Origin: a virus
Strand: one strand, 5' to 3'
DNA: 50,114 bases
Virus record (IMG/VR): IMGVR_UViG_3300045993_000341
Coordinates: 1 to 50,114 of that record
The notes under the pieces are model-generated. The model made no database searches. It saw only the letters and a list, made by a program, of their open reading frames with translations, and was not told where the DNA came from. Both the position numbers and the translations under genes were made by a program. Below are positions 22,057 through 34,633 of this stretch, piece after piece. Position 1 is the first letter of the stretch; each line of letters opens with the position of its first letter.

Positions 22057-22719
22057 CTAGAAATTTGTTGCATTTTTGATAAGCGTTGGTACATCAACAT
22101 TGGTGTACGGCCGTACCTTTTCATTTGGTTGGTTCAGAGCATAATAGAACTCTGTTGCGACTTCGTTCTTGTACACAATCTTCCAGTAACCCATTGGAAT
22201 TGGAATATTTGAACCAGGCATCATCTGTGGGTGAGAATACATAGCAAGAGTAACTACTTTGTAATCAACCGAGTCGGCATCGAATTCGGATCTGATTTTC
22301 ATCTCAAGAGTTTTCCAAGAGTTTCTGTTCAGAGTTGGCTCTTGTGGAGTCATGTTTGTGAGCAAGAATGTGGATTTCATTTCTTCTGGAGTATGAGAAT
22401 CTCCCGCTGGAGCCATATGACCGCGGTCATAGTCGGACTTGTAATAATCTAAATTGGTAGGTGATGATTTTCCAACTCGTGCATCTGCTTTAAAAGCATT
22501 TACACGATCAACTGCTCCGGATCCCTTAGACTTCTGAAGCCACTCAGAGGACATAACCGTAGCTTTGTTGTTTTTATCAAAACGATCTACGAAGAAAGTA
22601 TTACAAAGTTCCACTGTACCAACAGGCATAACTGTGAGGCTCTTTGGATAGAATTGTGGGCAAGCAGCATATGCGTTTAGAGCAAGGAATGCTGCCGCTA
22701 GTATCAGAAATTTTTTCAT
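22057..22719 (-). CDS. Secreted DNA/RNA non-specific endonuclease (NucA-like)
   Basis: 220 aa. Signal peptide KKFLILAAAFLALNAYA, then a beta-beta-alpha metal nuclease with the DRGHMAPAGD motif (about residues 97-106) and the metal-ligand LTNMTPQEPTLNRNSW region. The enzyme should act in the periplasm or outside the cell. Phage-encoded secreted nucleases may degrade incoming competitor DNA or debris DNA at lysis. Start overlaps the nucleotidyltransferase stop (ATGA). Confidence 0.85.
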   Translation of the reverse strand: MKKFLILAAAFLALNAYAACPQFYPKSLTVMPVGTVELCNTFFVDRFDKNNKATVMSSEWLQKSKGSGAVDRVNAFKADARVGKSSPTNLDYYKSDYDRGHMAPAGDSHTPEEMKSTFLLTNMTPQEPTLNRNSWKTLEMKIRSEFDADSVDYKVVTLAMYSHPQMMPGSNIPIPMGYWKIVYKNEVATEFYYALNQPNEKVRPYTNVDVPTLIKNATNF

Positions 22720-23408
22720 TGTGAGAGTTTATCCAATTTGTTGTTTAGTTTATCAATCAGACCACGATTACGTAGATCTTTATACAGCACATTTTCCACG
22801 GAGAATTCGCCTGCACCTTCTAGTCCAGCCGATCTCATTCTCCATAGTTTAGTCTTGAATTCCATGATAGCTTCCTCTGTGCCATCTTTGATCAGATTCT
22901 TAGCCGTCTGGATGTAGAATTTAATCTTGTCAATTACCTTCGGATCATTCAGAACTTCGATGTGGTCTAGGTGCTTTGGTTCAATCAGCCATTTGTCATG
23001 GAGCAGAGAATATACACCTTGGCCACCCGGGAAATGTTCCTTCTCATCCTGAATGTAGTATTCGACTGGGTAACCTTCAATTTTCAGCTCTGGGTGTTTC
23101 TTTGTCCACTCAGATTTCTTATCGAATAGCTCCGTTGTATCAAGATCAGTCTCATTGCACATCACGTGTACATCTATGTCCGAAAACTTAGTGTAGTTAT
23201 AGTTGCAATTCCCTCCGGTCATAACGATGTCATTGATCAAGGTAGATGGAACACCAGAAAATGTGGCAAACTTCTTGGCGTTCTCAATTAAGTAAGGAGC
23301 TACTGTGGGATTCAGCTCAGAGCTATGCCACAGCTTCTTGTTCAAAGTTGGATGATATTTGATTGTCAATTGGAACTTTTCCGAAAGGTATTGGCTGAAA
23401 GTTTTCAT
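22716..23408 (-). CDS. Nucleotidyltransferase-fold protein with capsid-targeting-like N terminus
   Basis: 230 aa. Pol-beta-like NTase motif TGGNCNYNYTKFSDIDVHVM (about residues 64-83; D-x-D metal ligands) with a later acidic strand (GYPVEYYI). The N terminus MKTFSQYLSEKF strongly resembles T4 capsid-targeting sequences, including an L-S-E site suited to prohead protease. It may be packaged and injected. Target of nucleotidyl transfer unknown. Confidence 0.7.
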   Translation of the reverse strand: MKTFSQYLSEKFQLTIKYHPTLNKKLWHSSELNPTVAPYLIENAKKFATFSGVPSTLINDIVMTGGNCNYNYTKFSDIDVHVMCNETDLDTTELFDKKSEWTKKHPELKIEGYPVEYYIQDEKEHFPGGQGVYSLLHDKWLIEPKHLDHIEVLNDPKVIDKIKFYIQTAKNLIKDGTEEAIMEFKTKLWRMRSAGLEGAGEFSVENVLYKDLRNRGLIDKLNNKLDKLSQ

Positions 23409-23423: not shown

Positions 23424-24152
23424 TTAAGCAAACAGTGAAGTAGAATAGATTTTGGTCTTATTTATAAGTACGGCAAAGAATTCATACACCTTGTCTACCA
23501 GAGCCGCACATTTGAAAGCATTATCAATTGAATGGCAAGTTTCGCATTGGTCCGAGGTTACTGGGTGACCAGCAGCATAAGAAGATTTACCAGGTGCATA
23601 GGTACCGTTGTGGCAATTTACACAACCAGTTGTAATACCGGCATGAATCGTAGCATGGTTAACTACCCAGCTTTGAGTCGTATGGCAAGACCCACAATCG
23701 GCTTGTGTCGGAACGTGTGTAAGAGCCTTTTGCTTCGCACCACCAAAATTCTTACCATAGTTCAAATATGAACCATTGTGGCATGAATCACATCTCTGAG
23801 CCGTAACAACCGTGTGATCCATGTTTACTGTAGAAGTAAATGCAGTAGTTCTGTGGCAATATGAGCACTCAACGATCTGAGTTGGGATATGGAATTGCGA
23901 ACGACCCACCGTAGTTCTTAGAGGATCTCCATTGTGACAAGTAACACAAGATTTTGGAGTACCAACGAAGACACCGCCTTTGTGGCAAGATGCGCACGTG
24001 TTACATTGCCCTGTACTTAGATGAGCTCCATCCAAAAGGAATGCAGGGTGAGACTGCTCATATAAGGTACACTCGGCCGCTTGGGCAGTGGTGGCGGTAA
24101 ATAGAGTTCCCGCTATGACTAGGGCTAAGCCCATGAAAAGTTTTTTAAGCAT
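23424..24152 (-). CDS. Secreted seven-haem c-type cytochrome
   Basis: 242 aa. Signal peptide (KKLFMGLALVIAG to TTAQA) and seven CXXCH haem sites: CASCH, CVTCH, CSYCH, CDSCH, CGSCH, CVNCH, CETCH. Non-motif histidines in HIPT, DHTV, HVPT and GHPV are spaced to act as distal ligands, as in low-potential bis-His cytochromes. The first about 125 residues are paralogous to the 168-aa cytochrome just upstream. A hydrophobic, helical tail (VYEFFAVLI) ends it. Electron carriage in the periplasm or through the outer membrane is likely. Confidence 0.88.
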   Translation of the reverse strand: MLKKLFMGLALVIAGTLFTATTAQAAECTLYEQSHPAFLLDGAHLSTGQCNTCASCHKGGVFVGTPKSCVTCHNGDPLRTTVGRSQFHIPTQIVECSYCHRTTAFTSTVNMDHTVVTAQRCDSCHNGSYLNYGKNFGGAKQKALTHVPTQADCGSCHTTQSWVVNHATIHAGITTGCVNCHNGTYAPGKSSYAAGHPVTSDQCETCHSIDNAFKCAALVDKVYEFFAVLINKTKIYSTSLFA

Positions 24153-24188
24153 GTAGCCCTCTGATTGTTTTAGTTATCTACTATTTAA

Positions 24189-24695
24189 TCAGTCCCAACT
24201 TCTATATAACGAGCCTTTGGTGCCGAGTGGTCGATGACATCCGACTTGAGAACAGTCTAATGGCACAGGAGTCTTCTGATTGTGTGTAATAGACATTCTT
24301 TGCTGATTGCCAAGATATCTTGGGCTTGTAGAAGAATGACAGGCGATACATTTTATTACACCAAGAGCTGGGTGATTCATAGTCACAGAGGTGGCAAATG
24401 ATACCGTCTTGTGACAAAAGTCACATTCTACCAGATTTGTTGGGATATGTAGTAATGGTCGACCTACTGTGAGTCTAGATGGATCTCCATTATGACATGT
24501 GACGCAAGATCTAGGTGTTCCATTGAAGATTGATCTGATGTGACATTGACCACATGACTGACATTTACCTGTAGATAAATGAGCTCCAGTTAGAGGATAA
24601 AGTGGGTGCATTGTTTCATATAAAGTACACTCAGCAGAGAATGTACTCGAGCACCCAAGCAGTAAACATGCACCAAGAAATTGCTTAAAATTCAT
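24189..24695 (-). CDS. Secreted multihaem c-type cytochrome, shorter paralogue
   Basis: 168 aa with AGGA upstream and a signal peptide (MNFKQFLGACLLLGCSSTFS). Four CXXCH sites (CGQCH, CVTCH, CDFCH, CIACH) and a fifth CX4CH (CSQVGCH) of the type seen in some multihaem cytochromes. It begins like its neighbour (ECTLYE...GAHLSTG, then SCVTCHNGDP and HIPT). Its start overlaps the porin stop by 11 nt, so barrel and cytochrome are translated together. Confidence 0.85.
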   Translation of the reverse strand: MNFKQFLGACLLLGCSSTFSAECTLYETMHPLYPLTGAHLSTGKCQSCGQCHIRSIFNGTPRSCVTCHNGDPSRLTVGRPLLHIPTNLVECDFCHKTVSFATSVTMNHPALGVIKCIACHSSTSPRYLGNQQRMSITHNQKTPVPLDCSQVGCHRPLGTKGSLYRSWD

Positions 24696-26259
24696 ATTTC
24701 AGTCCTATTACAAAAGTTTTGTCCAGAACATCTCGAATCTTATTCAAAATGAGCATTAGCTCGAACATTCCATTCTTGCCAAGTGGTTGGTGAGTAGCAA
24801 GTGAAAGTGCTTGTGATGTAGATGTCTGAGTGAACATTGTGTCCAATCTATATGGTCCGAGTGAGGTAGAATCCAGCAGTGTAGCAACGTAGTTGTTTTG
24901 TATGCCCATCTGATATGTGAGAAACATTGTAAGTGCATGCCCGGGTATCAATTTTGCATTTAGAGCAGAAAATGAAATAGCATTAGATCTAGAGAATCCA
25001 TCCTGCGATTGGTTCCCAGTCATCTCTGCATACTGATAGTCCGTCGATAAAGACCAATCACCTTTGGTAGTTGAAATACCCAGAGCAAAATTAGTAGACA
25101 TAGAAGTCTCTGCTATAATGTAATCATACAGCTGTTCCCGAGATATACCAGAACGAACCAAAGCCTCGTTTACTGAGTTATACGGTACCTTTGAATCAAG
25201 TAGCAGACCCAGTTGAAGTGCTTTATCACCATATAGAACTGGTGACTTCCGTTTGTCATATAGAATAAAGTAACTACCAAAATTCAGGTCATCACGAGCT
25301 TGCATGGTCACTGAGTTGATTTGTCTATATGCAATGTCATATTCAGTAATGAACGTAGTCGAGAGTCCGTTCTTGAAGTATCGAATATCAGTTCCGATGG
25401 CTTGCCGTTCAACAAATGAATCTGCTATCTGCTCATTGAAATAGACAGTGTACACTGTCGAGTCTATAAGCTGTGTTCGAGAGCCGCCAAAGAATGCTCG
25501 TTTGGTATCTGAATAGTTTAGAGCAGGTGACCCAGAAACTAATCTATACTCTACATCTGACCGAGAACCCATAGATAACTGAGCACCATCAAATTTACCA
25601 AGTATGCCAATTCCTGGATCTTGTCGACCAAGTTTTAGACCAAAATTTCTAAATGTATCTACAACCTCGACCGATGCCTGGTTTAACAGATACCGATCTT
25701 TGTCGGATTTACCCTCAACGTTCCGAATGTTTTCCTTGAAATTAATCTTCGTAGTATATTCGTCACGTTCAAACTTACCAGATGTAGATATATTTGAGAT
25801 GTAGGATCTATCGGACTCTGAGCTTATCATATATGTAGAAACAGCACCTTCTACAGTTGATGTATTTGCCACACGGGGTTTATCTGGCGACTGTGGAGCA
25901 GTATCGTGCTGTGGGTTAGCGACCTCTAGAGTAAGTAGGCGCCTTCTCATTGATTCAAGTATCTGAGAATCTGGGTACATAGCAATGTACGCTCTATACT
26001 CACCCATAGCTTTTGTGGGTTTTCCTGAGCGTTCATAAGCAACACCAATTCGTGCCTGAGCTTCTTGAGTAAATTTATTCTGTGGGAGTAGAAGGACTTT
26101 GTTTAAGATTAAGATTGCTGTGTCATAATCTTGAGCCCTGAGAGCATCTCGTGCTGTTTCCATTTGAACTGAAATGACGGAGATGTCTATATCCGGCTGA
26201 GTTTGTGAACTGGCCGCAAAAGAGATAAGTAACAATATAGTAGACAGCCATTTCCGCAT
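24685..26259 (-). CDS. Outer-membrane beta-barrel protein with N-terminal TPR domain
   Basis: 524 aa from ATG 26259. Signal peptide MRKWLSTILLLISFAASS; residues about 30-110 form TPR repeats (ARDALRAQDYDTAILILNKVL; AQARIGVAYERSGKPTKAMGEY); then a linker and about 380 residues of alternating beta strands ending in KYEF, the C-terminal aromatic signal for BAM assembly. Paired with two multihaem cytochromes it matches the logic of porin-cytochrome conduits (MtrAB, PioAB). A start at 26325 is open, but its ATG lies in a 6-bp hairpin and would bury the signal peptide. Confidence 0.75.
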   Translation of the reverse strand: MRKWLSTILLLISFAASSQTQPDIDISVISVQMETARDALRAQDYDTAILILNKVLLLPQNKFTQEAQARIGVAYERSGKPTKAMGEYRAYIAMYPDSQILESMRRRLLTLEVANPQHDTAPQSPDKPRVANTSTVEGAVSTYMISSESDRSYISNISTSGKFERDEYTTKINFKENIRNVEGKSDKDRYLLNQASVEVVDTFRNFGLKLGRQDPGIGILGKFDGAQLSMGSRSDVEYRLVSGSPALNYSDTKRAFFGGSRTQLIDSTVYTVYFNEQIADSFVERQAIGTDIRYFKNGLSTTFITEYDIAYRQINSVTMQARDDLNFGSYFILYDKRKSPVLYGDKALQLGLLLDSKVPYNSVNEALVRSGISREQLYDYIIAETSMSTNFALGISTTKGDWSLSTDYQYAEMTGNQSQDGFSRSNAISFSALNAKLIPGHALTMFLTYQMGIQNNYVATLLDSTSLGPYRLDTMFTQTSTSQALSLATHQPLGKNGMFELMLILNKIRDVLDKTFVIGLKYEF

Positions 26260-26341
26260 GGCATATTTAATGGTGGTAATGGTGAGAATCAAACTCACTT
26301 TGGGCACCGTATGAAGGTGGTGCATTATCCTAATGCTACAT

Positions 26342-26444
26342 TACCATATCTAAATACACTAGAGGAATCGAACCTCACCCGGTGCATGCTGTTCCGGTAG
26401 CTCCAAGCGTCGTTGATCAAACGATAGTGTATTTAGATATGGTA
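26342..26444 (-). ncRNA. tRNA-like unit enclosed by a 20-bp inverted repeat
   Basis: A perfect 20-bp inverted repeat (26342-26361 and 26425-26444) surrounds a cloverleaf-like core: 7 inner acceptor pairs (ATACACT/AGTGTAT), a D-arm-like CGTT/AACG hairpin and a T-arm GAGG TTCGATT CCTC. The anticodon region is long (about 34 nt) and gives no clear anticodon. There is no encoded CCA. Confidence 0.55.
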
Positions 26445-26513
26445 GGGCTCCACGGTACTGCCCCGTGTTCTTCTGATTAAAAGTCAGATATTTCACTTTA
26501 AAATTTGAACCCC
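26440..26513 (-). tRNA. tRNA-Lys(TTT) with unusual D- and T-loops
   Basis: Acceptor GGGGTTC/GAGCCCT with A73 and CCA; D-arm ATTT-TAAAGTG-AAAT has no GG; anticodon arm TCTGA-CTTTTAA-TCAGA; T-arm CACGG-GGCAGTA-CCGTG lacks TTC. Full cloverleaf but a non-canonical elbow. Its CCA overlaps the neighbouring 20-bp inverted repeat. Confidence 0.75.
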
Positions 26514-26518
26514 GTTGA

Positions 26519-26593
26519 TGGTCCTCTGCCACGGTAACGATCCGTGTTCTTCCGGGTAAGAGCCGGGAGCTTCACCATTAAAGCTTGCAGAAG
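26519..26593 (-). tRNA. tRNA-Lys(CTT)
   Basis: Acceptor CTTCTGC/GCAGAGG, A73, CCA; D-loop TAATGGTG; anticodon loop CTCTTAC; T-arm CACGG-ATCGTTA-CCGTG with A54/T58 in place of T54/A58. Confidence 0.75.
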
Positions 26594-26677
26594 AGATTGT
26601 GTATAAAAATTTCTTTTACGTGCAACCACAAACCATACAACGGGGTTCATGATTACACTAGCGTTTGCCAGTGTGTT

Positions 26678-26863
26678 TCATATAGTTTCTGTACTTTCTT
26701 TGATGTCAATATTTGCGAAGTATTCTTGTTTAAGATTTCCTCCACCTACTTTACTTAATCCTTCGATAGGATTCTTTTTGTGGCCGAAGCCGTTAACTTT
26801 TTGTCGTTTGCACATTAAGCAACCTGCACGTGCATTCTTTGGTTTACCGCGTTTGTGGTTCAT
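26678..26863 (-). CDS. Small basic protein with GCLMCK motif
   Basis: 61 aa. N terminus MNHKRGKPKNARAGCLMCK followed by GFGHKK. The RGKPKNARAGCLMCK motif recurs in small phage and bacterial proteins of unknown role. It lies inside the tRNA array. Confidence 0.65.
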   Translation of the reverse strand: MNHKRGKPKNARAGCLMCKRQKVNGFGHKKNPIEGLSKVGGGNLKQEYFANIDIKESTETI

Positions 26864-26871
26864 ATGTAATC

Positions 26872-27165
26872 CTAATGTACTAAAGCTGCCTTGAGAATTG
26901 CAATTTGCTTCCGTAGTTCTGCATTAATTTCTCGTTCCTCTTGGAGGTCATGCTGACATTGAAATGATTCATCTTTCCAAGTCTCAGTGACCGTATTCAG
27001 TAATCCTATCTGTGAATCGGAGATGGTGTCCTTCTCTTCAAGGTATTCTAATTGGTCTGCTAATTGAAGTAACAACAGAGTCATTTTGACGAGAAATTTT
27101 TCGTCAATCACTTCTGTGTTAATAATCTCCTTAGCGGTCTTTTTTAGATATTTTACGGTGATCAT
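26872..27165 (-). CDS. Hypothetical helical protein
   Basis: 97 aa from ATG 27165 (MITVKYLKKT); a TTG at 27171 is possible. Mostly helical, with a C-terminal coiled coil (LQEEREINAELRKQI). Sits between tRNA-Thr and the small basic protein gene. Function unknown. Confidence 0.55.
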   Translation of the reverse strand: MITVKYLKKTAKEIINTEVIDEKFLVKMTLLLLQLADQLEYLEEKDTISDSQIGLLNTVTETWKDESFQCQHDLQEEREINAELRKQIAILKAALVH

Positions 27166-27195
27166 ATTCAACTTTTTGTTGAATATTTAATGTTT

Positions 27196-27270
27196 TGGTG
27201 CCTATTGTAGGAATCGGACCTACGATCTCTCGCATACCAAGCGAGCGCAATACCACTATGCAAAATAGGC
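27196..27270 (-). tRNA. tRNA-Thr(GGT)
   Basis: Acceptor GCCTATT/AATAGGC, A73, CCA; anticodon arm CTCGC-TTGGTAT-GCGAG; T-loop TCCGATT (C at position 55). Confidence 0.85.
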
Positions 27271-27275
27271 TAAAA

Positions 27276-27350
27276 TGGAGGGCCGTGAGGGAATCGAACC
27301 CCCGTCTAATGCTTCGAAGGCAATAATTCTGTCCGTTGAAATAACGGCCC
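27276..27350 (-). tRNA. tRNA-Arg(TCG)
   Basis: Acceptor GGGCCGT/ACGGCCC, T73, CCA; anticodon loop CTTCGAA; T-arm GGGGG-TTCGATT-CCCTC. The D-arm is weak. Confidence 0.8.
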
Positions 27351-27355
27351 ATGTT

Positions 27356-27430
27356 TGGTACCCGAGGAGAATTTTGAAATCTCGACCTTCGCAGTGTAAG
27401 TGCGTTGCTCTACCTCTGAGCTACCCGGGC
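27356..27430 (-). tRNA. tRNA-Val(TAC)
   Basis: Acceptor GCCCGGG/CTCGGGT, A73, CCA; D-arm GCTC-AGAGGTA-GAGC; anticodon loop CTTACAC; T-loop TTCAAAA. Confidence 0.85.
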
Positions 27431-27435
27431 ATATT

Positions 27436-27509
27436 TGGTACATCGTGAAAGAATCGAACTTTCGTACTCGCCAAGTCAAAGCGGTATTCTACCATTGAAC
27501 TAACGATGC
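27436..27509 (-). tRNA. tRNA, anticodon by position GAC (Val), uncertain
   Basis: Acceptor GCATCGT/ACGATGT, A73, CCA; D-arm GTTC-AATGGTA-GAAT; T-arm GAAAG-TTCGATT-CTTTC. By spacing the loop is TTGACTT, giving GAC, but T37 is unusual and the stem has a C-A mismatch. Confidence 0.6.
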
Positions 27510-27515
27510 ATAATT

Positions 27516-27593
27516 TGGTGCGGATGGTGAGACTCGAACTCACAGAACTACTCCTTTTGAGAGAGCCGGCTTTACCAATTTGCCCACATCCGC
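27516..27593 (-). tRNA. tRNA-Leu(CAA)
   Basis: Acceptor GCGGATG/CATCCGC, A73, CCA; anticodon loop CTCAAAA; T-arm GTGAG-TTCGAGT-CTCAC; the variable region is short for a leucine tRNA. Confidence 0.8.
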
Positions 27594-27602
27594 ATAAATG
27601 TA

Positions 27603-27713
27603 TTGAATGAGCAAGATTACGAGGAGTGGACCCTGCCCTTATAGTCGTCGTTCAAGCATTTTATCTCCACAACAATGCAAGACACACCGGCCACTATCGA
27701 GGCTCTCATTCAA
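27603..27713 (-). other. Inverted-repeat-bounded non-coding unit
   Basis: 9-bp inverted repeat TTGAATGAG/CTCATTCAA at the ends, 111 nt, no ORF. No clear cloverleaf inside. Confidence 0.4.
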
Positions 27714-27717
27714 ATCT

Positions 27718-27792
27718 TGGTACCCCTGAGTGGAATCGGACCACTGTCTCTGGCTTCGCAAACCAGTATACTTTCCATTGTACTACAGGGAT
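27718..27792 (-). tRNA. tRNA-Arg(GCG)
   Basis: Acceptor ATCCCTG/CAGGGGT, A73, CCA; anticodon arm CTGGT-TTGCGAA-GCCAG; T-arm AGTGG-TCCGATT-CCACT. Confidence 0.78.
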
Positions 27793-27798
27793 AAATTT

Positions 27799-27875
27799 TG
27801 GTGCGGATGGTGGGACTCGAACCCACAGCTTACGGCTTCTAAGACCGCTGCGTTTACCAATTTCGCCACATCCGC
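27799..27875 (-). tRNA. tRNA-Leu(TAG)
   Basis: Acceptor GCGGATG/CATCCGC identical to tRNA-Leu(CAA), A73, CCA; anticodon arm GCGGT-CTTAGAA-GCCGT; T-loop TTCGAGT. Confidence 0.87.
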
Positions 27876-27880
27876 GTTAA

Positions 27881-27975
27881 AACAATTTAGGGGTGACCTG
27901 AGGGTACCGCCCCCTCTTAACTAAGTTCACAGCCTAGGTCATTACTTTTATGATAAGGCCACACCTAAATTGTCT
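27881..27975 (-). tRNA. tRNA-His(GTG) inside a 10-bp inverted repeat
   Basis: Core acceptor GTGGCCT/AGGTCAC with C73, as expected for tRNA-His; D-arm TCAT-AAAAGTA-ATGA without GG; anticodon arm CTAGG-CTGTGAA-CTTAG; T-arm GAGGG-GGCGGTA-CCCTC. No CCA (C73 then CCT). The flanks ACAATTTAGG/CCTAAATTGT extend the acceptor stem. Confidence 0.7.
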
Positions 27976-27979
27976 TTAG

Positions 27980-28054
27980 TGGCAGGGATACTAGGATTTG
28001 AACCTAGACTGACGGTTTTGGAGACCGCGATGCTGCCAATTACACTATATCCCT
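27980..28054 (-). tRNA. tRNA-Trp(CCA)
   Basis: Acceptor AGGGATA/TATCCCT, G73, CCA; anticodon arm GCGGT-CTCCAAA-ACCGT; T-loop TTCAAAT. Confidence 0.9.
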
Positions 28055-28063
28055 GTAAATCCA

Positions 28064-28216
28064 TTAAGCTGCCATTTTAGCAGCAATTTTCTTTCGCTGT
28101 TTGGTTGCCTTCAAACCCAATTTGTCCAACTGGGCCAATTGGTCCGTTGGTGACAACTTTGCCCACGCTGTATTACGAGCCACGGCCTCTGAATGCTTCA
28201 CACTTCTATCTTTCAT
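28064..28216 (-). CDS. Small basic protein within the tRNA array
   Basis: 50 aa, ATG at 28216 with a GGAG sequence upstream. MKDRSVKHSEAVARNTAWAK then LSPTDQLAQLDKLGLKATKQRKKIAAKM. Amphipathic and Lys-rich; may bind RNA. Similar tiny proteins occur in other phages (from memory). Confidence 0.65.
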   Translation of the reverse strand: MKDRSVKHSEAVARNTAWAKLSPTDQLAQLDKLGLKATKQRKKIAAKMAA

Positions 28217-28251
28217 TTGGAGTACTCCATCTAGTTAAAAATCAATAATAT

Positions 28252-28342
28252 TGGCACCCCGTGAAGGAATCGAACCTTCTAACCGTGATTCAAAGTCACG
28301 TATGCATGCCATTGCATATACGAGGAGTATGTATAACAGGGT
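28252..28342 (-). tRNA. tRNA-Gln(TTG) with an inserted hairpin
   Basis: Acceptor ACCCTGT/ACGGGGT, G73, CCA; anticodon arm CGTGA-CTTTGAA-TCACG; T-arm GAAGG-TTCGATT-CCTTC. Between acceptor and anticodon stem there are 35 nt instead of about 19, including an extra ATAC-TCCTC-GTAT hairpin. Its first 5 nt overlap the 3' strand of element E3. Confidence 0.78.
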
Positions 28343-28456
28343 CACTTTAATTGGCGGCTGCTCTACCAACTGAGCTACGTAAAAGGTTTCACACTAATAC
28401 GGTGAGACTCGAACTCACGACAGGCTGCTTGGATTTAAGTATGCTGAACTGACCCT
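28338..28456 (-). ncRNA. Y-RNA-like element E3 with a circularly permuted tRNA module
   Basis: 119 nt closed by AGGGTCA (28450-28456) and TGACCCT (28338-28344). Inside, in order: family motif GTTCAGCA; an anticodon-type 3' strand GCAGC; T-arm GTGAG-TTCGAGT-CTCAC; CGTA, a loop, TACG; D-arm GCTC-AGTTGGTA-GAGC; strand GCCGC. The T half precedes the D half, the acceptor end is closed by a loop, and the two ends of the RNA extend the anticodon-type stem. This is the layout of bacterial YrlA Y RNAs. Confidence 0.65.
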
Positions 28457-28465
28457 AAAGATAAC

Positions 28466-28525
28466 AGGATAATTTTTACGGTTTTGATTAAAAGTCAAAT
28501 GTATTTGTTTTGCTGAACTTATCCT
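28466..28525 (-). ncRNA. Y-RNA-like element E4 with a lysine anticodon-arm mimic
   Basis: 60 nt closed by AGGATAA/TTATCCT (28519-28525 with 28466-28472). Family motif GTTCAGCAAAACAAATAC, then a hairpin TTTGA-CTTTTAA-TCAAA that equals a tRNA-Lys(TTT) anticodon arm. There is no T-arm or D-arm pair. Confidence 0.5.
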
Positions 28526-28531
28526 AAATTT

Positions 28532-28621
28532 TGGCGGAGAATCAGGGAGTCGAACCCTGTAAGCTACTTTCGTAACTTTACTGATTAGCAATCAGCTGCA
28601 TTACCGTCCTGCCCATTCTCC
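28532..28621 (-). tRNA. tRNA-Ser(GCT)
   Basis: Acceptor GGAGAAT/ATTCTCC, G73, CCA; anticodon arm CTGAT-TGCTAAT-CAG type with GCT; long variable arm; T-loop TTCGACT. Confidence 0.87.
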
Positions 28622-28625
28622 ATTC

Positions 28626-29189
28626 TTACTGTAACCGAGCACGTGAGTGCTTAGGTAGATGTGCTGTAAGAAATTCCATCTGATCTGCAAGAATATTTCT
28701 ATTTGCAAGAATCAGAGCTTCTGCACGGTCAGGAATGTATGGAGCATATAGCAACGTAAGTCCTGCCTTTTCTACCGACTTGTCATCTTTATAGTTATTG
28801 CAAGGCTTGCAAGCAGTAACCACATTCATCCAAGTATTCGGACCACCTTTGGAAACAGGAACAATGTGATCCCGTGTAGCATCATGATCTCTCACGTGCG
28901 AACCACAGTAACAACAAATATGTCTGTCTCGACCAAATAGATTTCTATTGGTCAGTGGGACTGATCTATTCTTTGTACGACCAAGTGAGCGAATAGCTAC
29001 AATTGATGGCACAGACACAGTTGATTGTTCACCGGTCAGTCTTGAATTTCCACCACGGTAAATGGTTTCGTCACCAAGAGACCAAGCAATCAAATCTTTA
29101 ACTTTGTAACAAACTCCTTCTTCCCAAGTGGACCAGCGTTGTGGAATTCCAGCTGAGTCAAGAGTCAATACTAATGGATGATTTCTCAC
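28626..29189 (-). CDS. HNH endonuclease
   Basis: 187 aa. C-terminal HNH domain with CCYCGSH, RDHIVPVSKGG (about residues 110-120) and the N/H region NVVTACKPCNNYKDD; two CxxC pairs bind structural zinc. The N-terminal 85 residues are the DNA-recognition or accessory part. Position inside a tRNA array is typical for a free-standing homing endonuclease, but this family also occurs as a fixed phage gene. Confidence 0.83.
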   Translation of the reverse strand: MRNHPLVLTLDSAGIPQRWSTWEEGVCYKVKDLIAWSLGDETIYRGGNSRLTGEQSTVSVPSIVAIRSLGRTKNRSVPLTNRNLFGRDRHICCYCGSHVRDHDATRDHIVPVSKGGPNTWMNVVTACKPCNNYKDDKSVEKAGLTLLYAPYIPDRAEALILANRNILADQMEFLTAHLPKHSRARLQ

Positions 29190-29216
29190 AATGCCCGTCC
29201 TTTCTATAATTAAGTT

Positions 29217-29308
29217 TGTTTAGTGTGACAGGATTTTCACCTGCAAACCCTCCTAGCACAAGCTTTACAGCTTATCCGCCGGCATTCTAAATGTTGAACT
29301 ACACACTA
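29217..29308 (-). tRNA. Degenerate tRNA-Tyr-like unit (GTA)
   Basis: TAGTGTG/CACACTA acceptor extended by two pairs; D-arm-like GTTC...GAAT; arm ATAAG-CTGTAAAG-CTTGT with an 8-nt loop containing GTA; T-arm CAGG...CCTG with loop TGAAAAT. No CCA; extra palindromic GCCGGC. Probably a decayed or atypical tRNA; a better tRNA-Tyr lies at 31490. Confidence 0.45.
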
Positions 29309-29313
29309 AAATT

Positions 29314-29386
29314 TGGTTGCGTACCCCTGAATTGAACAGGTCCTGAGGGTTATGAGCCCACCGTGCTACCATCACACTCGGCCGCG
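29314..29386 (-). tRNA. Initiator-like tRNA-Met(CAT)
   Basis: Anticodon loop CTCATAA on a stem ending GGG/CCC, and a C1-A72 mismatch at the acceptor end: the two marks of bacterial initiator tRNA. A73, CCA; D-loop has GG; T-loop TTCAATT. Acceptor pairs 5 and 6 are also mismatched, so the stem is weak. Confidence 0.7.
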
Positions 29387-29611
29387 ATATTCATCTGCTT
29401 ACGATTATGCAGAGTATGTGTCGATACTAGAGGTACTCAGTGGAGTACTTAGTCCATACCGATTTATTCATCCGCTTACTTGATACGGAACTTAGTTTTT
29501 TGAAGGCCAAGTAGTGTAATAACGCCTACAACTTACGGATGTTAATCGGACGCCTGAGTAGCCAACAAAGCTACTCTACCGGTGACGTCAAACGGTCCTA
29601 AGGGGATCCTT
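29387..29611 (-). other. Non-coding stretch with hairpins
   Basis: 225 nt without an ORF. Visible hairpins: GTACTC/GAGTAC with CACT loop, AGTAGC/GCTACT, AGTAT/ATACT, and a short direct repeat GTAAGC-GATGAAT. No tRNA recognised. Confidence 0.4.
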
Positions 29612-29696
29612 TGGTGCAGCTGGTCGGAATCGAACCGACACGGATTTCTCCACTAGCTTCTTAGACTAGCGTGGCTACCAATTACACCACAGCTGC
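29612..29696 (-). tRNA. tRNA-Leu(AAG)
   Basis: Acceptor GCAGCTG/CAGCTGC, A73, CCA; anticodon arm CTAGT-CTAAGAA-GCTAG; variable arm TGGA-GAAA-TCCG; T-loop TTCGATT. Confidence 0.85.
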
Positions 29697-29701
29697 AATA
29701 C

Positions 29702-29798
29702 CCAATTCAAAACACACTGCCAAGAACTCCTGAGCGGTTAACCTCAGTCCTAATGTTCACACAAGAAACCACTAATGTGGGAATGTGTTTTGAATTGG
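29702..29798 (-). ncRNA. Inverted-repeat-bounded tRNA-like unit
   Basis: 15-bp perfect inverted repeat (29702-29716 and 29784-29798). Inside are a CCAC/GTGG hairpin and a CTGAG/CTCAG hairpin with loop GTTAACCG. No clear anticodon and no CCA. Confidence 0.45.
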
Positions 29799-29870
29799 TG
29801 CCCCAGGACGGAATCGAACCGCCACACCCTGCTTACAAAACAGGACCTCTACCACTAAGGATACAAGGGC
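29796..29870 (-). tRNA. tRNA-Thr(TGT)
   Basis: Acceptor GCCCTTG/CTGGGGC, A73, CCA; anticodon arm CCTGT-TTTGTAA-GCAGG; T-loop TTCGATT. Confidence 0.83.
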
Positions 29871-29876
29871 TAAAAT

Positions 29877-29951
29877 TGGTATGAGCACCCGGTTACGCTC
29901 CGGGATCTTCTGTTTGGCAAACAGATACACGAACTACTGTGCTATGCCCAT
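29877..29951 (-). tRNA. tRNA-Gly(GCC) with unusual elbow
   Basis: Acceptor ATGGGCA/TGCTCAT, A73, CCA; D-arm GCAC-AGTAGTTC-GTGT without GG; anticodon arm TCTGT-TTGCCAA-ACAGA; T-arm CCCGG-AGCGTAA-CCGGG. Confidence 0.77.
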
Positions 29952-29988
29952 GTTGTTCTTATTTTTATTCTTTAATCTAAACTACTAG

Positions 29989-30063
29989 TGGTCCGCCGTG
30001 AGGGAATCGAACCCCCGTTCGGACGTTAGAAGTGTCCTGTATTTTCCACTATACGAACGGCAG
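29989..30063 (-). tRNA. tRNA-Arg(TCT)
   Basis: Acceptor CTGCCGT/ACGGCGG, A73, CCA; anticodon loop CTTCTAA on GGAC/GTCC; T-arm GGGGG-TTCGATT-CCCTC. Confidence 0.85.
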
Positions 30064-30073
30064 ATAATATCAC

Positions 30074-30153
30074 AGGATCGTTCTCTACTTTTTGATTTAA
30101 GTCAGAACATCGAAACTGACAGCCAAATGTATTTGGTTTGCTGTAACGATCCT
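30074..30153 (-). ncRNA. Y-RNA-like element E5
   Basis: 80 nt closed by a perfect 9-bp stem AGGATCGTT/AACGATCCT. Inside: ACAG...CTGT enclosing CCAAA/TTTGG, then GTCAG/CTGAC. The CAGCAAAcCAAATACATTTG stretch is nearly shared with E4. No tRNA module. Confidence 0.55.
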
Positions 30154-30158
30154 AAAAC

Positions 30159-30232
30159 TGGTCTCGGTAGTAGGAATCGAACCTACGCTCCTTGGTCCCA
30201 AACCAAGAGTGATACCATTTCACCACACCGAG
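30159..30232 (-). tRNA. tRNA-Pro(TGG), copy 1
   Basis: Acceptor CTCGGTG/TACCGAG, A73, CCA; anticodon arm CTTGG-TTTGGGA-CCAAG; T-loop TTCGATT. Confidence 0.9.
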
Positions 30233-30248
30233 TATAATCTATTTATTC

Positions 30249-30322
30249 TGGAACACCTACTCAGAATCGAACTGAGTTCAACGGGTTTGCAATCCGCTGC
30301 CTATCCAACGGGCTCTAGGTGC
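30249..30322 (-). tRNA. tRNA-Cys(GCA)
   Basis: Acceptor GCACCTA/TAGGTGT, T73, CCA; anticodon loop TTGCAAA; T-arm CTCAG-TTCGATT-CTGAG. Confidence 0.87.
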
Positions 30323-30327
30323 ATATA

Positions 30328-30420
30328 TTAGTAAGCAGGCTGAAATAGAATGGTGCGGATTCGAACCGCCTGTTAGTTCCCAGGACATTCCATGCCCGTT
30401 TCAGTCAGGCCCTGCTTAAT
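30328..30420 (-). ncRNA. Inverted-repeat-bounded tRNA-like unit
   Basis: Outer stem AAGCAGG/CCTGCTT and inner CTGAAA/TTTCAG. Three hairpins follow: GGGCAT/ATGTCC, CCTG...CAGG and T-arm GCGG-TTCGAAT-CCGC. Cloverleaf-like, no credible anticodon, no CCA at the end. Confidence 0.5.
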
Positions 30421-30421
30421 T

Positions 30422-30513
30422 TGGCGGAGAGCAGAGGAGTCGAACCCCATCCTATTTCTAAGAACCTGGTTTTCAAGGCCAGTCGCAGGACCATCCCCGC
30501 TGCATTACTCTCC
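30422..30513 (-). tRNA. tRNA-Ser(TGA)
   Basis: Acceptor GGAGAGT/GCTCTCC, G73, CCA; anticodon arm CTGGC-CTTGAAA-ACCAG; long variable arm; T-loop TTCGACT. Confidence 0.87.
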
Positions 30514-30520
30514 ATATCTT

Positions 30521-30599
30521 TGGTGGGGTGTCTAGGAATCGAACCTAGTTCTACTGCTCTTCAGGCAGTCGCTGAAATGACCACACTAGCTCACACCCC
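30521..30599 (-). tRNA. tRNA-Phe(GAA)
   Basis: Acceptor GGGGTGT/ACACCCC, A73, CCA; anticodon arm ACTGC-CTGAAGA-GCAGT; T-arm CTAGG-TTCGATT-CCTAG; long D region. Confidence 0.85.
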
Positions 30600-31063
30600 G
30601 AAATTTAGCCCACCGCTTCGTTAGGACTCTTACCCCAGTTTTTCTCAAATGCTACCCACATACGCTAAACGATATGGACACCTGACGCAGTATATCACTG
30701 CAAAGAGCACCGCGTAGGGATGATGCTCTACTGTTTACTTTGTGGCTCTTGCTTTCCACTTGATTCAATTCATACCGACCTGGAGGATTTATACCCCCGT
30801 CTTTTCTAGACCCACGTCAGCTGTGGATGACGATTTTCTTCTTGCAAGAAACTTGCTTTGTAAAATTCATCATGCTTCTGTTTCTTGGTTTGCATGGGAC
30901 CTCAGAATCGTTAGATTAAGATTCGAGCCTTCGGCTTAGATTCTTGGAATGTCTAGGGTATAGATCATCCCGTTGTTTCACTTTCCCACAAACCTTTCGG
31001 CCAATTTGTCTTTCGAGAAATTGTTAAGTTGAAACTTTGTAGAGAGCGACTCTACCATTCTGC
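30600..31063 (-). other. 464-nt non-coding, hairpin-rich stretch
   Basis: No convincing gene. A 29-codon frame on the minus strand near 30810-30900 (ATG CAA ACC) has GAGGT before it but is too short to trust. Hairpins: AGAGCA/TGCTCT, GCAGT/ACTGC, AGCC-GAA-GGCT and GGGGG-TATAAAT-CCTCC, the last with T-arm dimensions. May hold further RNA genes of unknown class. Confidence 0.4.
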
Positions 31064-31137
31064 TGGTGCCCACGTAAGGAATCGGACCTTCGTCTAACGA
31101 TTATCAGTCGTTTGCTCTACCATTGAGCTACATGGGC
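31064..31137 (-). tRNA. tRNA-Ile(GAT)
   Basis: Acceptor GCCCATG/CGTGGGC, A73, CCA; anticodon arm AACGA-CTGATAA-TCGTT; T-loop TCCGATT. Confidence 0.88.
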
Positions 31138-31196
31138 AAATTAATTGAAGTCCTGCTTGCCGTTGTGGTGCAGGGAACCATGGCGTCTTCAAATCT

Positions 31197-31271
31197 TGGA
31201 GTCGCATAGGGGTTACGATCCCCTCTACTCAGCTTGAAAGGCTGATGACCTCACCAGAAGTCCAATGCGAC
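31197..31271 (-). tRNA. tRNA-Glu(TTC)
   Basis: Acceptor GTCGCAT/ATGCGAC, T73, CCA; anticodon arm TCAGC-CTTTCAA-GCTGA; T-arm AGGGG-ATCGTAA-CCCCT with A54/T58. Confidence 0.83.
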
Positions 31272-31278
31272 ATTAAAA

Positions 31279-31373
31279 TGACTTCCCAGACAGGAATCGA
31301 ACCTGTGTTATCCGGATCACATCATCCGTGACCACTCCATCGGCATCCGCGCGGATGATGCCTACACTGGGAA
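31279..31373 (-). tRNA. Atypical tRNA-like gene, anticodon unclear
   Basis: Acceptor TTCCCAG/CTGGGAA with G73 then TCA instead of CCA; T-arm ACAGG-TTCGATT-CCTGT. The D-arm place holds a 6-bp hairpin GGCATC/GATGCC, and the next hairpin CGGAT/ATCCG has loop GATGTG. Identity not assigned. Confidence 0.5.
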
Positions 31374-31385
31374 ATAAAATTGGGC

Positions 31386-31483
31386 ACAATGCTAAGCTGA
31401 CCATCTAGGAATCGAACCTAGCTTATTCTCCGTTAACAGCGGAGCGCCTACACCATGTTTGCTTATGGTCAGCTTAGCATTGT
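31386..31483 (-). tRNA. tRNA-Asn(GTT) inside a 19-bp inverted repeat
   Basis: Core 31397-31471: acceptor TGACCAT/ATGGTCA, G73, anticodon arm CTCCG-CTGTTAA-CGGAG, T-arm CTAGG-TTCGATT-CCTAG. The acceptor helix continues for 12 further pairs on both sides (31386-31404 with 31465-31483). No CCA encoded. Confidence 0.83.
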
Positions 31484-31489
31484 AAAACT

Positions 31490-31574
31490 TGGTGGATGAT
31501 GATGGTAACGATCCATCAGAGCTTAAAGCGCCGGGTTTACAATCCGGACCGTCTCCTTAACGGTATAATCATCC
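31490..31574 (-). tRNA. tRNA-Tyr(GTA)
   Basis: Acceptor GGATGAT/ATCATCC, A73, CCA; anticodon arm CCGGA-TTGTAAA-CCCGG; long variable arm; T-arm GATGG-ATCGTTA-CCATC. Confidence 0.83.
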
Positions 31575-31987
31575 AAAATCTAGGAGGAATACACGGCGTT
31601 ATTATAACCACGTTAAAGGGTTAATATAACTTCTGTCCTCGGCAGGTTTGCCGCTGTTGTTTGCCCTCGACTCCCTACTGGACCGACTTTGCTCATCATT
31701 CGTCATGTAGTCGTTTCGCTATGAAGCTATACTCTATGTGCTACATGAAGACCGGAAACTCTGTTCCGGCTCGGTTTCCATCTACTCTACTACTAACTAA
31801 CAACTTAGTATCTATCATTCTAAAGCATATATGTCGCCACAAAGCTATGACATAATTGTTCTGCAAGCTTAATATCGCAGAGTCGCTTTATGCTTTAGAA
31901 TGACACCCTATTTCTAGGGTCATTCTGTCTACTAAATTGTTAATGAACTTTCAAGTGTAACTCTATCATTTCACTTGGTATGGATTT
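31575..31987 (-). other. Non-coding leader of the promoter-proximal tRNA group
   Basis: Transcribed from the promoter at 31988-32016. Contains a hairpin with a GAAA loop (about 31903-31926) and a unit bounded by a 14-bp inverted repeat (31816-31829 with 31889-31902). No ORF of note. Confidence 0.5.
31926..31980 (-). repeat. Promoter-leader repeat A, copy 1
   Basis: 55 bp identical to 34266-34320. Each copy lies just downstream of a strong promoter (31988 and 34328), so both tRNA sub-operons share the same 5' leader. Confidence 0.9.
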
Positions 31988-32016
31988 ATTATAACATACA
32001 CATCAATATGTGTAAA
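31988..32016 (-). promoter_or_regulatory. tRNA operon promoter (proximal, group 1)
   Basis: -10 TATAAT (31988-31993), -35 TTTACA (32011-32016), 17-bp spacer, CATATTGATG after the -35. Confidence 0.78.
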
Positions 32017-32026
32017 TTATTTCTTC

Positions 32027-32161
32027 ATTGTCTGCTAGGTAAGTTAATGAGAAATTTCCCTTACCCTGTTACTCTGTATCAGACTAATTCCACGCCAACA
32101 ACTTTCATTAGATGGGGTATCTTAGCATCAACCTACGGCTCTCTGTGTTCGAGCAGACAAT
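32027..32161 (-). ncRNA. Structured RNA between tandem promoters (group 1)
   Basis: 135 nt closed by a perfect 10-bp stem ATTGTCTGCT/AGCAGACAAT; an inner hairpin GGTAAG/CTTACC. Lies between promoters at 32214 and 31988. Its counterpart is at 34372-34584. Confidence 0.5.
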
Positions 32162-32164
32162 AAA

Positions 32165-32210
32165 TTTTTAAAGAACCTATCCAACAGAAGCGATGTTTTG
32201 TTGGTATGGA
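32165..32210 (-). repeat. Promoter-leader repeat B, copy 1
   Basis: 46 bp identical to 34585-34630; the 5' leader after the promoter at 32214. Confidence 0.9.
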
Positions 32211-32213
32211 TTT

Positions 32214-32242
32214 ATTATAACATACACATCAATATGTGTAAA
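32214..32242 (-). promoter_or_regulatory. tRNA operon promoter (distal, group 1)
   Basis: -10 TATAAT (32214-32219), -35 TTTACA (32237-32242), 17-bp spacer. Confidence 0.78.
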
Positions 32243-32247
32243 TTATT

Positions 32248-32322
32248 TGGCAGTCCCAAGGGGTAACGATCCCCTTCTTCAACAGTGACAGTGTTGTGTG
32301 CGTCCATGAACACTTTGAGACT
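32248..32322 (-). tRNA. tRNA-Asp(GTC)
   Basis: Acceptor AGTCTCA/TGGGACT, G73, CCA; D-arm GTGT-TCATGGAC-GCAC; anticodon arm CAACA-CTGTCAC-TGTTG; T-arm AGGGG-ATCGTTA-CCCCT. Confidence 0.85.
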
Positions 32323-32329
32323 AAATTTT

Positions 32330-32406
32330 TGGTGTCCCTGATCGGACTCGAACCGACAGATTATGGATTTTAAGTCCACTGCCTAGACCAATTTGGCTAC
32401 AGGGAC
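32330..32406 (-). tRNA. tRNA-Leu(TAA)
   Basis: Acceptor GTCCCTG/CAGGGAC, A73, CCA; anticodon arm GTGGA-CTTAAAA-TCCAT; T-loop TTCGAGT. Its 5' end overlaps the last codons of the GIY-YIG gene. Confidence 0.88.
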
Positions 32407-33051
32407 TTTTAATTTTCTACCTTTAGACCAACCATCAGGTATAAAGTCTGTTTTCTTTATTTTCTTATTTTCTTTCCCATTCGTAATCCACATAGATCCA
32501 AATTGAGAATTTTTATTCCCGGATTGTTTTTCTTTCATATGATCTGACATAAACTTTATAAATTCCGGTGTATGAGATTTACCAAGAAAAGAAGTTCTAC
32601 CAGAATCAATGAAATTTTTATTAGTTCCATTTTTGAGTATGTTCGCCTGACCACCAAGTGATGAAACAACTTTCTGATAATCATCACCATATTTTTCACA
32701 TAATACTTCATTGGTTCTTACTCTGCCCAATTTTGTTCTTTCTAGATGGAGATCAGAACTATCATTAAGATAATCAAACCCACCCAAACCACCTCTTCTG
32801 AGGTTGTAAGTATCTTCTCTACTCAAAAATTCTTCATTTACAATTTGAAATTCACGGGCAAACATCTCTTCTTGAGACTCAAATGTCTCAAGAATAGTTT
32901 TGGTAAAATTTTCAATCCCATGCTTTTTGATTGCCCGAGTAATAATTTTACCAGAACCCATATAGCCATCATCTAACTTTTTAGTTTTATGAACACCTAT
33001 ATAGATTTTACCATTGATATTGTTTCTAATTTCGTATAAGTAATAGTGCAT
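32383..33051 (-). CDS. GIY-YIG homing endonuclease (Seg-like)
   Basis: 222 aa with GGAG upstream. N-terminal GIY-YIG domain: HYYLYEIRNNINGKIYIGVHKT (first 22 residues, given here in two halves: YYLYEI and KIYIGVHKT), Arg in YMGSGKIITRAIKKHG, catalytic Glu region about 60-75. The C-terminal part has NUMOD-like LGKSHTPEFIKFMSDH and SMWITNGKENKKI modules for DNA contact. AT-rich relative to neighbours. Its 3' end runs into tRNA-Leu(TAA), as expected for an element that targets a tRNA gene. Confidence 0.85.
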   Translation of the reverse strand: MHYYLYEIRNNINGKIYIGVHKTKKLDDGYMGSGKIITRAIKKHGIENFTKTILETFESQEEMFAREFQIVNEEFLSREDTYNLRRGGLGGFDYLNDSSDLHLERTKLGRVRTNEVLCEKYGDDYQKVVSSLGGQANILKNGTNKNFIDSGRTSFLGKSHTPEFIKFMSDHMKEKQSGNKNSQFGSMWITNGKENKKIKKTDFIPDGWSKGRKLKVPVAKLV

Positions 33052-33081
33052 TTGTATCTCCTATTACTATTTAGTGAAAGC

Positions 33082-33159
33082 ATGAGCGGGATAGGAGATT
33101 CGAACTCCTACTTTCAGCTTGGAAGGCTATCGTGCTAAACCGTTGAACACCAATCCCGC
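33082..33159 (-). tRNA. tRNA-Gly(TCC)
   Basis: Acceptor GCGGGAT/ATCCCGC, T73, followed by CAT rather than CCA; anticodon loop CTTCCAA; T-arm GTAGGAG-TTCGAAT-CTCC type. Confidence 0.8.
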
Positions 33160-33246
33160 ATAAAACAAAAGAAAGTCCGTTACTTACCAAGGAAAGGTTC
33201 TACCTGTTACTTCCTTATAGCATTTTCGCCTCGACAACTTTCAAAC
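33160..33246 (-). other. Hairpin-rich spacer
   Basis: Bounded by GAAAGT/ACTTTC and containing AAGGAA/TTCCTT around AGGT/ACCT. tRNA-like size, but no arms can be assigned. Confidence 0.35.
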
Positions 33247-33320
33247 TGGTCAGGGTACTAGGAATCGAACCTAGGCTTCAAGCTTCCAAAACTCGTAGAC
33301 TACCATTATCTCATACCCTG
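33247..33320 (-). tRNA. tRNA-Pro(TGG), copy 2
   Basis: Acceptor CAGGGTA/TACCCTG, A73, CCA; anticodon arm CGAGT-TTTGGAA-GCTTG; T-arm CTAGG-TTCGATT-CCTAG. Sequence differs widely from copy 1. Confidence 0.83.
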
Positions 33321-33405
33321 TAAATTCATGAAAGTTCCGATAACACCCATCGTCACTTACAACCGTTGTGAAACCATGCATCAAAACAAGATTTCTATTT
33401 GCTCT

Positions 33406-33481
33406 TGGTGGAGCTGTGGGGTAACGATCCCCAATCTTCGCATTGCAAGTGCGACGTGTAGCCCTCTATCACTACAACCCC
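33406..33481 (-). tRNA. tRNA-Ala(TGC)
   Basis: Acceptor GGGGTTG/CAGCTCC, A73, CCA; anticodon arm TCGCA-CTTGCAA-TGCGA; T-arm TGGGG-ATCGTTA-CCCCA. Confidence 0.85.
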
Positions 33482-33506
33482 AAAATATTCTTAAAGTTGA
33501 TGTCTG

Positions 33507-33580
33507 GAATTATGATACTAGGAATTGAACCTAGTCACCCGGGCGTTCAACCCGGTATGCATCCGTTACATCTTATCAAA
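33507..33580 (-). tRNA. tRNA-like gene, anticodon by position GAA
   Basis: Acceptor TTTGATA/TATCATA (one mismatch), A73 then TTC; anticodon arm CCGGG-TTGAACG-CCCGG gives GAA but with C37; T-arm CTAGG-TTCAATT-CCTAG. Lies within a 13-bp inverted repeat (33488-33500 with 33661-33673). May be a decayed tRNA-Phe. Confidence 0.5.
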
Positions 33581-34087
33581 TCTGCAGGAATTCTACACTT
33601 CACTCGGCAAAGCGAAGGAACTTACCTGACCAAACACAACCCGTCTTCGGATTGCCGTCCTCAACTTTAAGAACACTAACTAACATTTTAAAACACACTG
33701 CGTATCTTAGTCACAGCACTATGGAGCAACCCCGTACCTTCAGACCCAAACAACAAGACCGCGAATCTTGTCCGACCTGCAGTATGTTTTAAAATGATCA
33801 CTCAGATCATCACAGAAGGGATCCCTTCTGTGTGGGTTCTTTATCCGCTTAACCGAGTTCCGACGTGGCAAGGTCGTTGTTACCACAAACAAAGTTAAGT
33901 TTCGAGTTAATCATCCTTTTAAGTACTTCATGTAAGTTTTCGAGGCATTACTGACTGTGGCGAACTTGTCTAGAATGACGCACATATTTTATTGAGCAGC
34001 GAGTACTTAAAAAACTGATTTCTATTATCTTTGAACTATTGTCACATACCGTTTCGGGCACATTATCGTTATTCTATTGTCACAGAA

Positions 34088-34194
34088 GATCATATTTTAG
34101 TACATTTGCAGGACTCGAACCTGCCAATTCAACTCGGTCGAACTATATCCCTCATATCTGCATGGCCTACGCATTTATGTACTAAAATATGATC
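34088..34194 (-). ncRNA. tRNA-like unit inside a 17-bp inverted repeat
   Basis: The 17-bp repeat ends in acceptor-like GTACAT/ATGTAC. Inside: a D-arm-like TGC-GTAGGCCAT-GCA hairpin, an ATAT/ATAT arm, a possible variable arm TTC...GAA, and T-arm GCAGG-TTCGAGT-CCTGC. No clear anticodon, no CCA. Confidence 0.5.
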
Positions 34195-34265
34195 CCTCCA
34201 ACCGTGCCGAATAGCAACCAGTTGTCATCCCGACATTGGACTGTGAAGTCGATGTAGAGGAATCG

Positions 34266-34320
34266 TGTCTACTAAATTGTTAATGAACTTTCAAGTGTAA
34301 CTCTATCATTTCACTTGGTA
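34266..34320 (-). repeat. Promoter-leader repeat A, copy 2
   Basis: 55 bp identical to 31926-31980. Confidence 0.9.
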
Positions 34321-34327
34321 AGGAATA

Positions 34328-34356: not shown

Positions 34357-34371
34357 TTATTTCTTCATTCG

Positions 34372-34630: not shown

Positions 34631-34633
34631 ATG

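Follow-up and report, generated by a model that had tools for sequence, protein, structure and literature searches.

Gene cluster and phage context

The viral DNA analysed here (IMG/VR record IMGVR_UViG_3300045993_000341, positions 1 to 50,114, referred to as the window) contains a three-gene porin–cytochrome cluster on the minus strand (23424–26259). In the 5' to 3' direction, the cluster encodes a predicted outer-membrane barrel protein (524 amino acids, 24685–26259) and two secreted c-type cytochromes, termed CytA (168 amino acids, 24189–24695) and CytB (242 amino acids, 23424–24152). The three overlapping or adjacent genes described in the initial annotation were all recovered, and the barrel and CytA genes overlap by 11 bases. 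An alternative, longer reading frame of the barrel protein starts at 26325 and overlaps a tRNA-Met gene (26271–26345). An array of 29 tRNAs predicted by ARAGORN is located directly upstream of the cluster (26271–33580, minus strand). Two tRNAs of the tRNA region (26271–34700) overlap or are of duplicated types, and direct repeats of about 100 bases occur near 31.9–32.0 and 34.3 kb.

Further phage genes in the window encode a T4-type gp32 single-strand DNA-binding protein (14362–15264, minus strand; PF08804, phrog_224 with an E-value of 5e-88, tblastn matches to T4-like phages), a clamp loader, an exonuclease, an RNA ligase, a dCMP deaminase, PhoH, and a glucosyltransferase of the HMC-DNA type. 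A phrog_2 match was rejected as a terminase, because it corresponds to the PhoH-like protein. The cluster was also considered as a known defence family and rejected, as PADLOC gave no match. Directly 3' of cytB (22057–23408) lie genes for a nucleotidyltransferase-like protein without assigned function (phrog_36119) and for a DNA/RNA non-specific endonuclease (PF01223) that appears to be secreted. Adjacent genes resembling UDP-glucose dehydrogenase, a nucleotide-sugar epimerase, and an HMC-DNA glucosyltransferase (3856–7124) suggest sugar-modified phage DNA or nucleotide-sugar synthesis. The nicotinamide-nucleotide adenylyltransferase-like gene at 40241–41380 (phrog_3462) is possibly a second redox-related auxiliary gene involved in NAD supply.

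The first 48978 bases of a second record, IMGVR_UViG_3300045918_000214 (G001, 68,895 bases), are 100% identical to window positions 1137–50114, including the borders of the cluster, and this record additionally carries the gene of a T4-type major capsid protein gp23 (61971–63086, E 1e-131). An assembly chimera or mis-binned bacterial DNA might be suspected, since every phage record was assembled from a metagenome and some reads may be common to G001 and the window. The identity by itself therefore cannot rule out a shared error; homologous clusters elsewhere do. These clusters were found in many assemblies, with gp23 or terminase genes on the same contigs, and their sequences form a phage-only group. 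The overlap running on to gp23 and the homologous clusters in many other phage contigs led us to reject an assembly accident, which the initial annotation had named as a concern; for the window, a chimera is hardly credible, and for the clusters as a class it is already refuted.

Cytochromes and barrel protein

CytB contains seven CXXCH motifs. CytA contains four and, in addition, a CX4CH motif (C148–H154), which is kept in nine of nine aligned sequences and is a plain CXXCH in two relatives (L013 and L086). This is in accordance with the two multihaem cytochromes of seven and four to five haems described earlier. In 20,000 shuffles of each protein, the mean number of CXXCH motifs was 0.07 for either, with maxima of three for CytB and two for CytA. 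None of the other open reading frames of at least 60 amino acids in the window has even one such motif, and no protein with at least two besides CytA and CytB is encoded in the window or in G001. Both cytochromes match c-type families (Cytochrom_CIII above the Pfam cut-off for CytA, Cytochrome_C7 and Paired_CXXCH_1 for CytB), and they are paralogues with 51% identity across 116 residues. Matches to decahaem families were far below the cut-off, and those to OmcA/MtrC were absent or below the threshold. The nearest solved structures to CytB in profile comparisons are the c7-type "nanowire" proteins of Geobacter (PDB 3ov0 and 3ouq, E 8e-6 and 4e-4). CytB shares their repeating c7-like haem units, with the likeness limited to about 90 residues; in the comparison made, the Geobacter proteins have no porin partner, unlike CytB. 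The AlphaFold model of CytB was poor (pLDDT 40.7) and was set aside, which may be expectable for a haem-packed protein, because AlphaFold does not model haems.

Besides the seven proximal histidines, exactly seven others (positions 35, 44, 88, 113, 146, 170, and 196) are invariant in 10 of 10 phage CytB sequences. As their number equals that of the haem sites, they are candidate distal ligands, one per haem, which fits seven bis-histidine electron-transfer haems. The cytochromes might instead form a periplasmic redox buffer that stores or dumps electrons or handles metals or oxidants, with the barrel merely importing a substrate. The cytochrome c7-type domains and the phages without a long periplasmic cytochrome are compatible with such a buffer. 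It is nevertheless unlikely, since neither CytA nor CytB has a catalytic domain, the candidate second histidine ligand for all CytB haems favours electron transfer over catalysis, and the pairing with a wide barrel of the type described below is constant.

The barrel protein was characterised by its translation, weak TPR matches, an AlphaFold model, and homology to bacterial porins. A signal-peptide-like start (the signal peptides of all cluster proteins were judged by eye only) is followed by a TPR-like helical domain (residues 27–114), predicted to be periplasmic, and by a predicted 22-strand outer-membrane beta-barrel (132–523). The model, built from a 22-sequence alignment, has a mean pLDDT of 84.4 and a pTM of 0.64 and displays 22 long strands with a three-helix insert. 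Thus, the barrel part of the proposed TPR-plus-barrel architecture holds in structure prediction, whereas the TPR part is represented by matches below the Pfam cut-off and by the helical domain of the model. An N-terminal AMIN domain above the Pfam cut-off was detected in the barrel proteins of L010, L012, and L020 and is lost from that of the window. Foldseek returned general large barrels only, including pilus-usher and Cir (TM approximately 0.45–0.49, i.e., below 0.5), and no specific family. Known 22-strand barrels contain a plug domain, so that space for a small cytochrome inside the modelled phage barrel is plausible.

The initial annotation had likened the cluster to MtrAB/PioAB conduits. 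The design is shared with MtrAB, MtoAB, and PioAB in that an outer-membrane barrel and a secreted multihaem cytochrome are encoded together, here in a phage. The family assignment, however, did not hold: the barrel has no match to the MtrB/PioB family (PF11854) at E-values up to 1, and MtrB is absent among its profile matches to solved structures. MtrB/PioB-type barrels have 26 strands, in contrast to the 22 predicted here, and instead of a decahaem MtrA-type cytochrome the phage encodes proteins with seven and five haem sites, whose matches to decahaem families are below the threshold.

Relatives in viruses and bacteria

The search for related clusters envisaged in the initial annotation was productive for phages and bacteria alike. 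Profile searches of IMG/VR gave 21 loci for CytA and 21 for CytB. After near-identical contigs had been merged, 14 to 15 distinct viral genomes with the cluster remained (contigs of 11 to 369 kb); the lower figure applies if G004 and G013, which stem from a single metagenome (3300045970) and each break off at the cluster, are opposite ends of one genome, as they may be. Wherever no contig end interrupts the cluster, the barrel and CytB are both encoded. CytA is present in most clusters and missing from L019, L092, and L099, in which the smallest form of the cluster, barrel and heptahaem CytB alone, was observed. Phage hallmark genes are located on the same contigs as the cluster: gp23 on seven genomes (G001, which is that of the window, G010, G012, G013, G014, G422, and G423; the 14 control genomes gave no match), terminase on G004, G010, G012, and G014, and a T4-type rIIA gene together with a phage structural protein on G002. 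Transfer RNA genes (ARAGORN) adjoin the cluster in several relatives. A predicted tRNA with the amber-reading anticodon CTA (L011, 4703–4777) possibly serves stop-codon suppression, and L005 encodes, upstream of its cluster (1137–1829), a response-regulator receiver domain whose C-terminal part is hydrophobic. Among 50,697 deposited phage genomes, no relatives of the barrel, CytB, or the inner-membrane protein described below were found.

This small inner-membrane protein (145–158 amino acids) is encoded by a fourth gene in five phages (G002, G012/G015, G010, G014, and G419). The gene directly follows the cytochrome genes in G002 and G012/G015 (145–156 amino acids), lies just upstream of the barrel gene in G010, and elsewhere on the contig in G419. 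In G014 (328 kb), it is located about 65 kb from the cluster (L048, 6263–7298), away from any multihaem gene and behind a gene whose small secreted product resembles outer-membrane proteins. The protein contains the motif WX3HX13H twice (W54-H58-H72 and W120-H124-H138, numbering of G002) and an SGXXG motif (S96–G100 in G002), all of which are invariant, and on the basis of these motifs it is predicted to hold two b haems. The gene was not found in the window or G001, both of which may be incomplete, nor in the 179-kb and 369-kb relatives.

When the CytB profile was run against 84,980 species genomes of bacteria and archaea, 16 loci with 28% to 41% identity were identified, none of them close to the phage-type CytB. 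At many of these loci, genes for a homologue of the inner-membrane protein, a cytochrome with 18 to 24 CXXCH motifs, a larger cytochrome with 18 to 56, and a TPR/barrel protein lie side by side; the phage barrel profile matches these TPR/barrel proteins at E-values of 1e-34 to 1e-98. Barrel homologues occur in 22 of 399 genomes of the order containing the Gallionella MAG, and in the neighbourhoods read in that order the large cytochrome has 10 to 59 haem sites. By organism group, gene set, haem numbers, and motifs, rather than by alignment to named sequences, the bacterial clusters were identified as PCC3, which has been described from Sideroxydans and Leptothrix and is complete in 26 Gallionellaceae genomes (He et al., 2017, PMC5566968; PMC10734462). 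Two WX3HX13H motifs and SGXXG are the signature of the PCC3 inner-membrane protein, for which two b haems and electron exchange with quinones have been proposed (PMC5566968). In Gallionellaceae and their relatives PCC3 is predicted to be a conduit, by which iron-cycling bacteria probably move electrons across the envelope.

Several parts of the phage cluster have counterparts in PCC3. The phage TPR/barrel protein, with its 22-strand model, is homologous to the PCC3-kind porin, the multihaem cytochromes are homologous as well, and the genes are clustered in both. The inner-membrane protein of the five phages is likewise homologous, including both WX3HX13H motifs and SGXXG. In several bacterial clusters, the large cytochrome ends in a sequence that matches the end of CytA in the window's group of phages (DCSxxGCHRPxGxxGxxYRSW). 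The differences concern above all the cytochromes, which in the phage have seven and five haems compared with 10–59 and 18–27, the phage version being half the size. Both phage cytochromes are related to the large PCC3 cytochrome; with five (CytA) and seven (CytB) sites, neither corresponds to a large extracellular cytochrome of 10–35 or more haems, and the periplasmic 21–27-haem cytochrome has no phage counterpart. The phage inner-membrane protein is missing from most records and lacks the loop of about 150 amino acids that precedes the last helix of the approximately 300-amino-acid bacterial proteins. The gene order also differs between the two, and the phage version is virus-borne. Because two defining parts of PCC3 are absent (the large extracellular and the 21–27-haem periplasmic cytochrome), we regard the phage cluster as a miniaturised variant and not as a member of PCC3.

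A tree built from 10 phage barrels and 12 bacterial ones separates the two sets by a branch with a support of 100/100, and the phage cytochromes have extra cysteines in common (positions 28 and 50 in CytB) that were not seen in the bacterial protein starts read. As far as the sampled bacteria allow, both observations point to a long separate evolution of the cluster in phages rather than a recent acquisition. Between the window and L005, the barrel (49% identity) changes faster than CytA (70%) and CytB (84%); synonymous change is saturated in this pair. For the pair L018 and L021, dN/dS values of 0.13 (barrel), 0.04 (CytA), and 0.07 (CytB) demonstrate at the sequence level that the genes are under purifying selection. 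Jumbo phages carry many accessory genes, and the cluster could accordingly consist of host-derived passengers without function. Such passengers are very improbable in view of the dN/dS values (0.04–0.13), the conserved gene order, and the deep phage-only group.

The fast change of the barrel is expected of an exposed protein and would also suit a remodelling of the host surface. In this reading, receptors would be blocked or replaced by the phage-made barrel (superinfection exclusion), and the cytochromes would accompany it as accessories in the periplasm or as passengers. Outer-membrane barrels can be phage-encoded, several being contained in the viral structure library. However, all barrel genes recovered uncut are linked to CytB, the haem proteins are the best conserved part of the cluster, and the barrel is homologous to PCC3 porins, so that surface remodelling appears quite improbable, even more so than the redox buffer.

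Possible role in electron transfer

The cluster probably represents a miniaturised, PCC3-related electron conduit and thus an auxiliary metabolic module of the phage. The initial annotation had put forward the general idea of a porin–cytochrome conduit, which is substantiated by the conserved cluster, the wide predicted barrel, the invariant candidate axial histidines, the homology to bacterial clusters, and the inner-membrane protein in five phages. The sequences directly show the gene content, its conservation, purifying selection, the haem sites and the candidate axial histidines, PCC3 homology, and linkage to phage genes, and the outer-membrane barrel is predicted from the model; complex formation, electron transfer, its direction, and the benefit to the phage we infer.

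The proteins would be produced during infection, with haem maturation by the cytochrome c machinery of the host. The barrel would form a wide channel in the outer membrane of the host, its TPR domain being located in the periplasm, and CytB with its seven haems would serve as the constant wire, either threading the barrel or docking to it. This pair, which is always kept, would be the functional analogue of MtrB and MtrA. In most phages, CytA with its five haems would lengthen the wire, and in five the inner-membrane protein would couple it to the quinone pool. Phages without this gene, perhaps including that of the window, would depend on host partners for the quinone link. Electrons would then move either from the quinone pool to an acceptor outside the cell or from a donor outside to the pool. 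By analogy with cyanophages, the gain for the phage is probably that quinone turnover and the proton-motive force are kept up until lysis.

Some observations count against a conduit. At approximately 10 Å each, seven haems would reach across an outer membrane but fall short of the full width of the periplasm, so that shuttling by CytB or by a cytochrome of the host would be required; nor can 12 haems by themselves bridge that width. The phages lack the 21–27-haem cytochrome, and neither the window nor the 179-kb and 369-kb relatives contain the inner-membrane gene. PCC3 itself has been proposed for electron uptake from outside, yet in Sideroxydans ES-1 it was found to be down-regulated on Fe(II)-citrate (PMC8788666). 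It is a tentative extension, about which we are somewhat doubtful, that these large phages form a lineage with an envelope-spanning route of their own, consisting of the two-b-haem inner-membrane protein, the heptahaem cytochrome, and the porin with the second cytochrome, by which they control the outside electron exchange of the infected cell.

The well-known viral energy genes work in photosynthesis or inner-membrane respiration, and cyanophages carry photosynthesis genes (psbA and others). These are likewise phage-borne electron transport genes thought to sustain host energy during infection, but they encode other proteins that act in another cell compartment, without an outer-membrane conduit. 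The statement in the initial annotation that no phage is known to have been described with such a conduit agrees with our search, as no report of phage-borne porin–cytochrome or multihaem genes was found in the literature searched (preprints and most subscription papers lay outside its scope). PCC3 was proposed in 2017, and with as many as 59 haem sites its bacterial forms are difficult to express; the phage cluster is a short version, which makes the conduit idea directly testable, and may be the smallest working form of a PCC3-type conduit. If the interpretation is correct, a virus-supplied outer-membrane conduit would extend the range of viral energy genes to extracellular electron transfer and would link phages directly to the redox cycling of metals and humic substances. 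The findings suggest that phages with this cluster help to run the respiration of the cells they infect.
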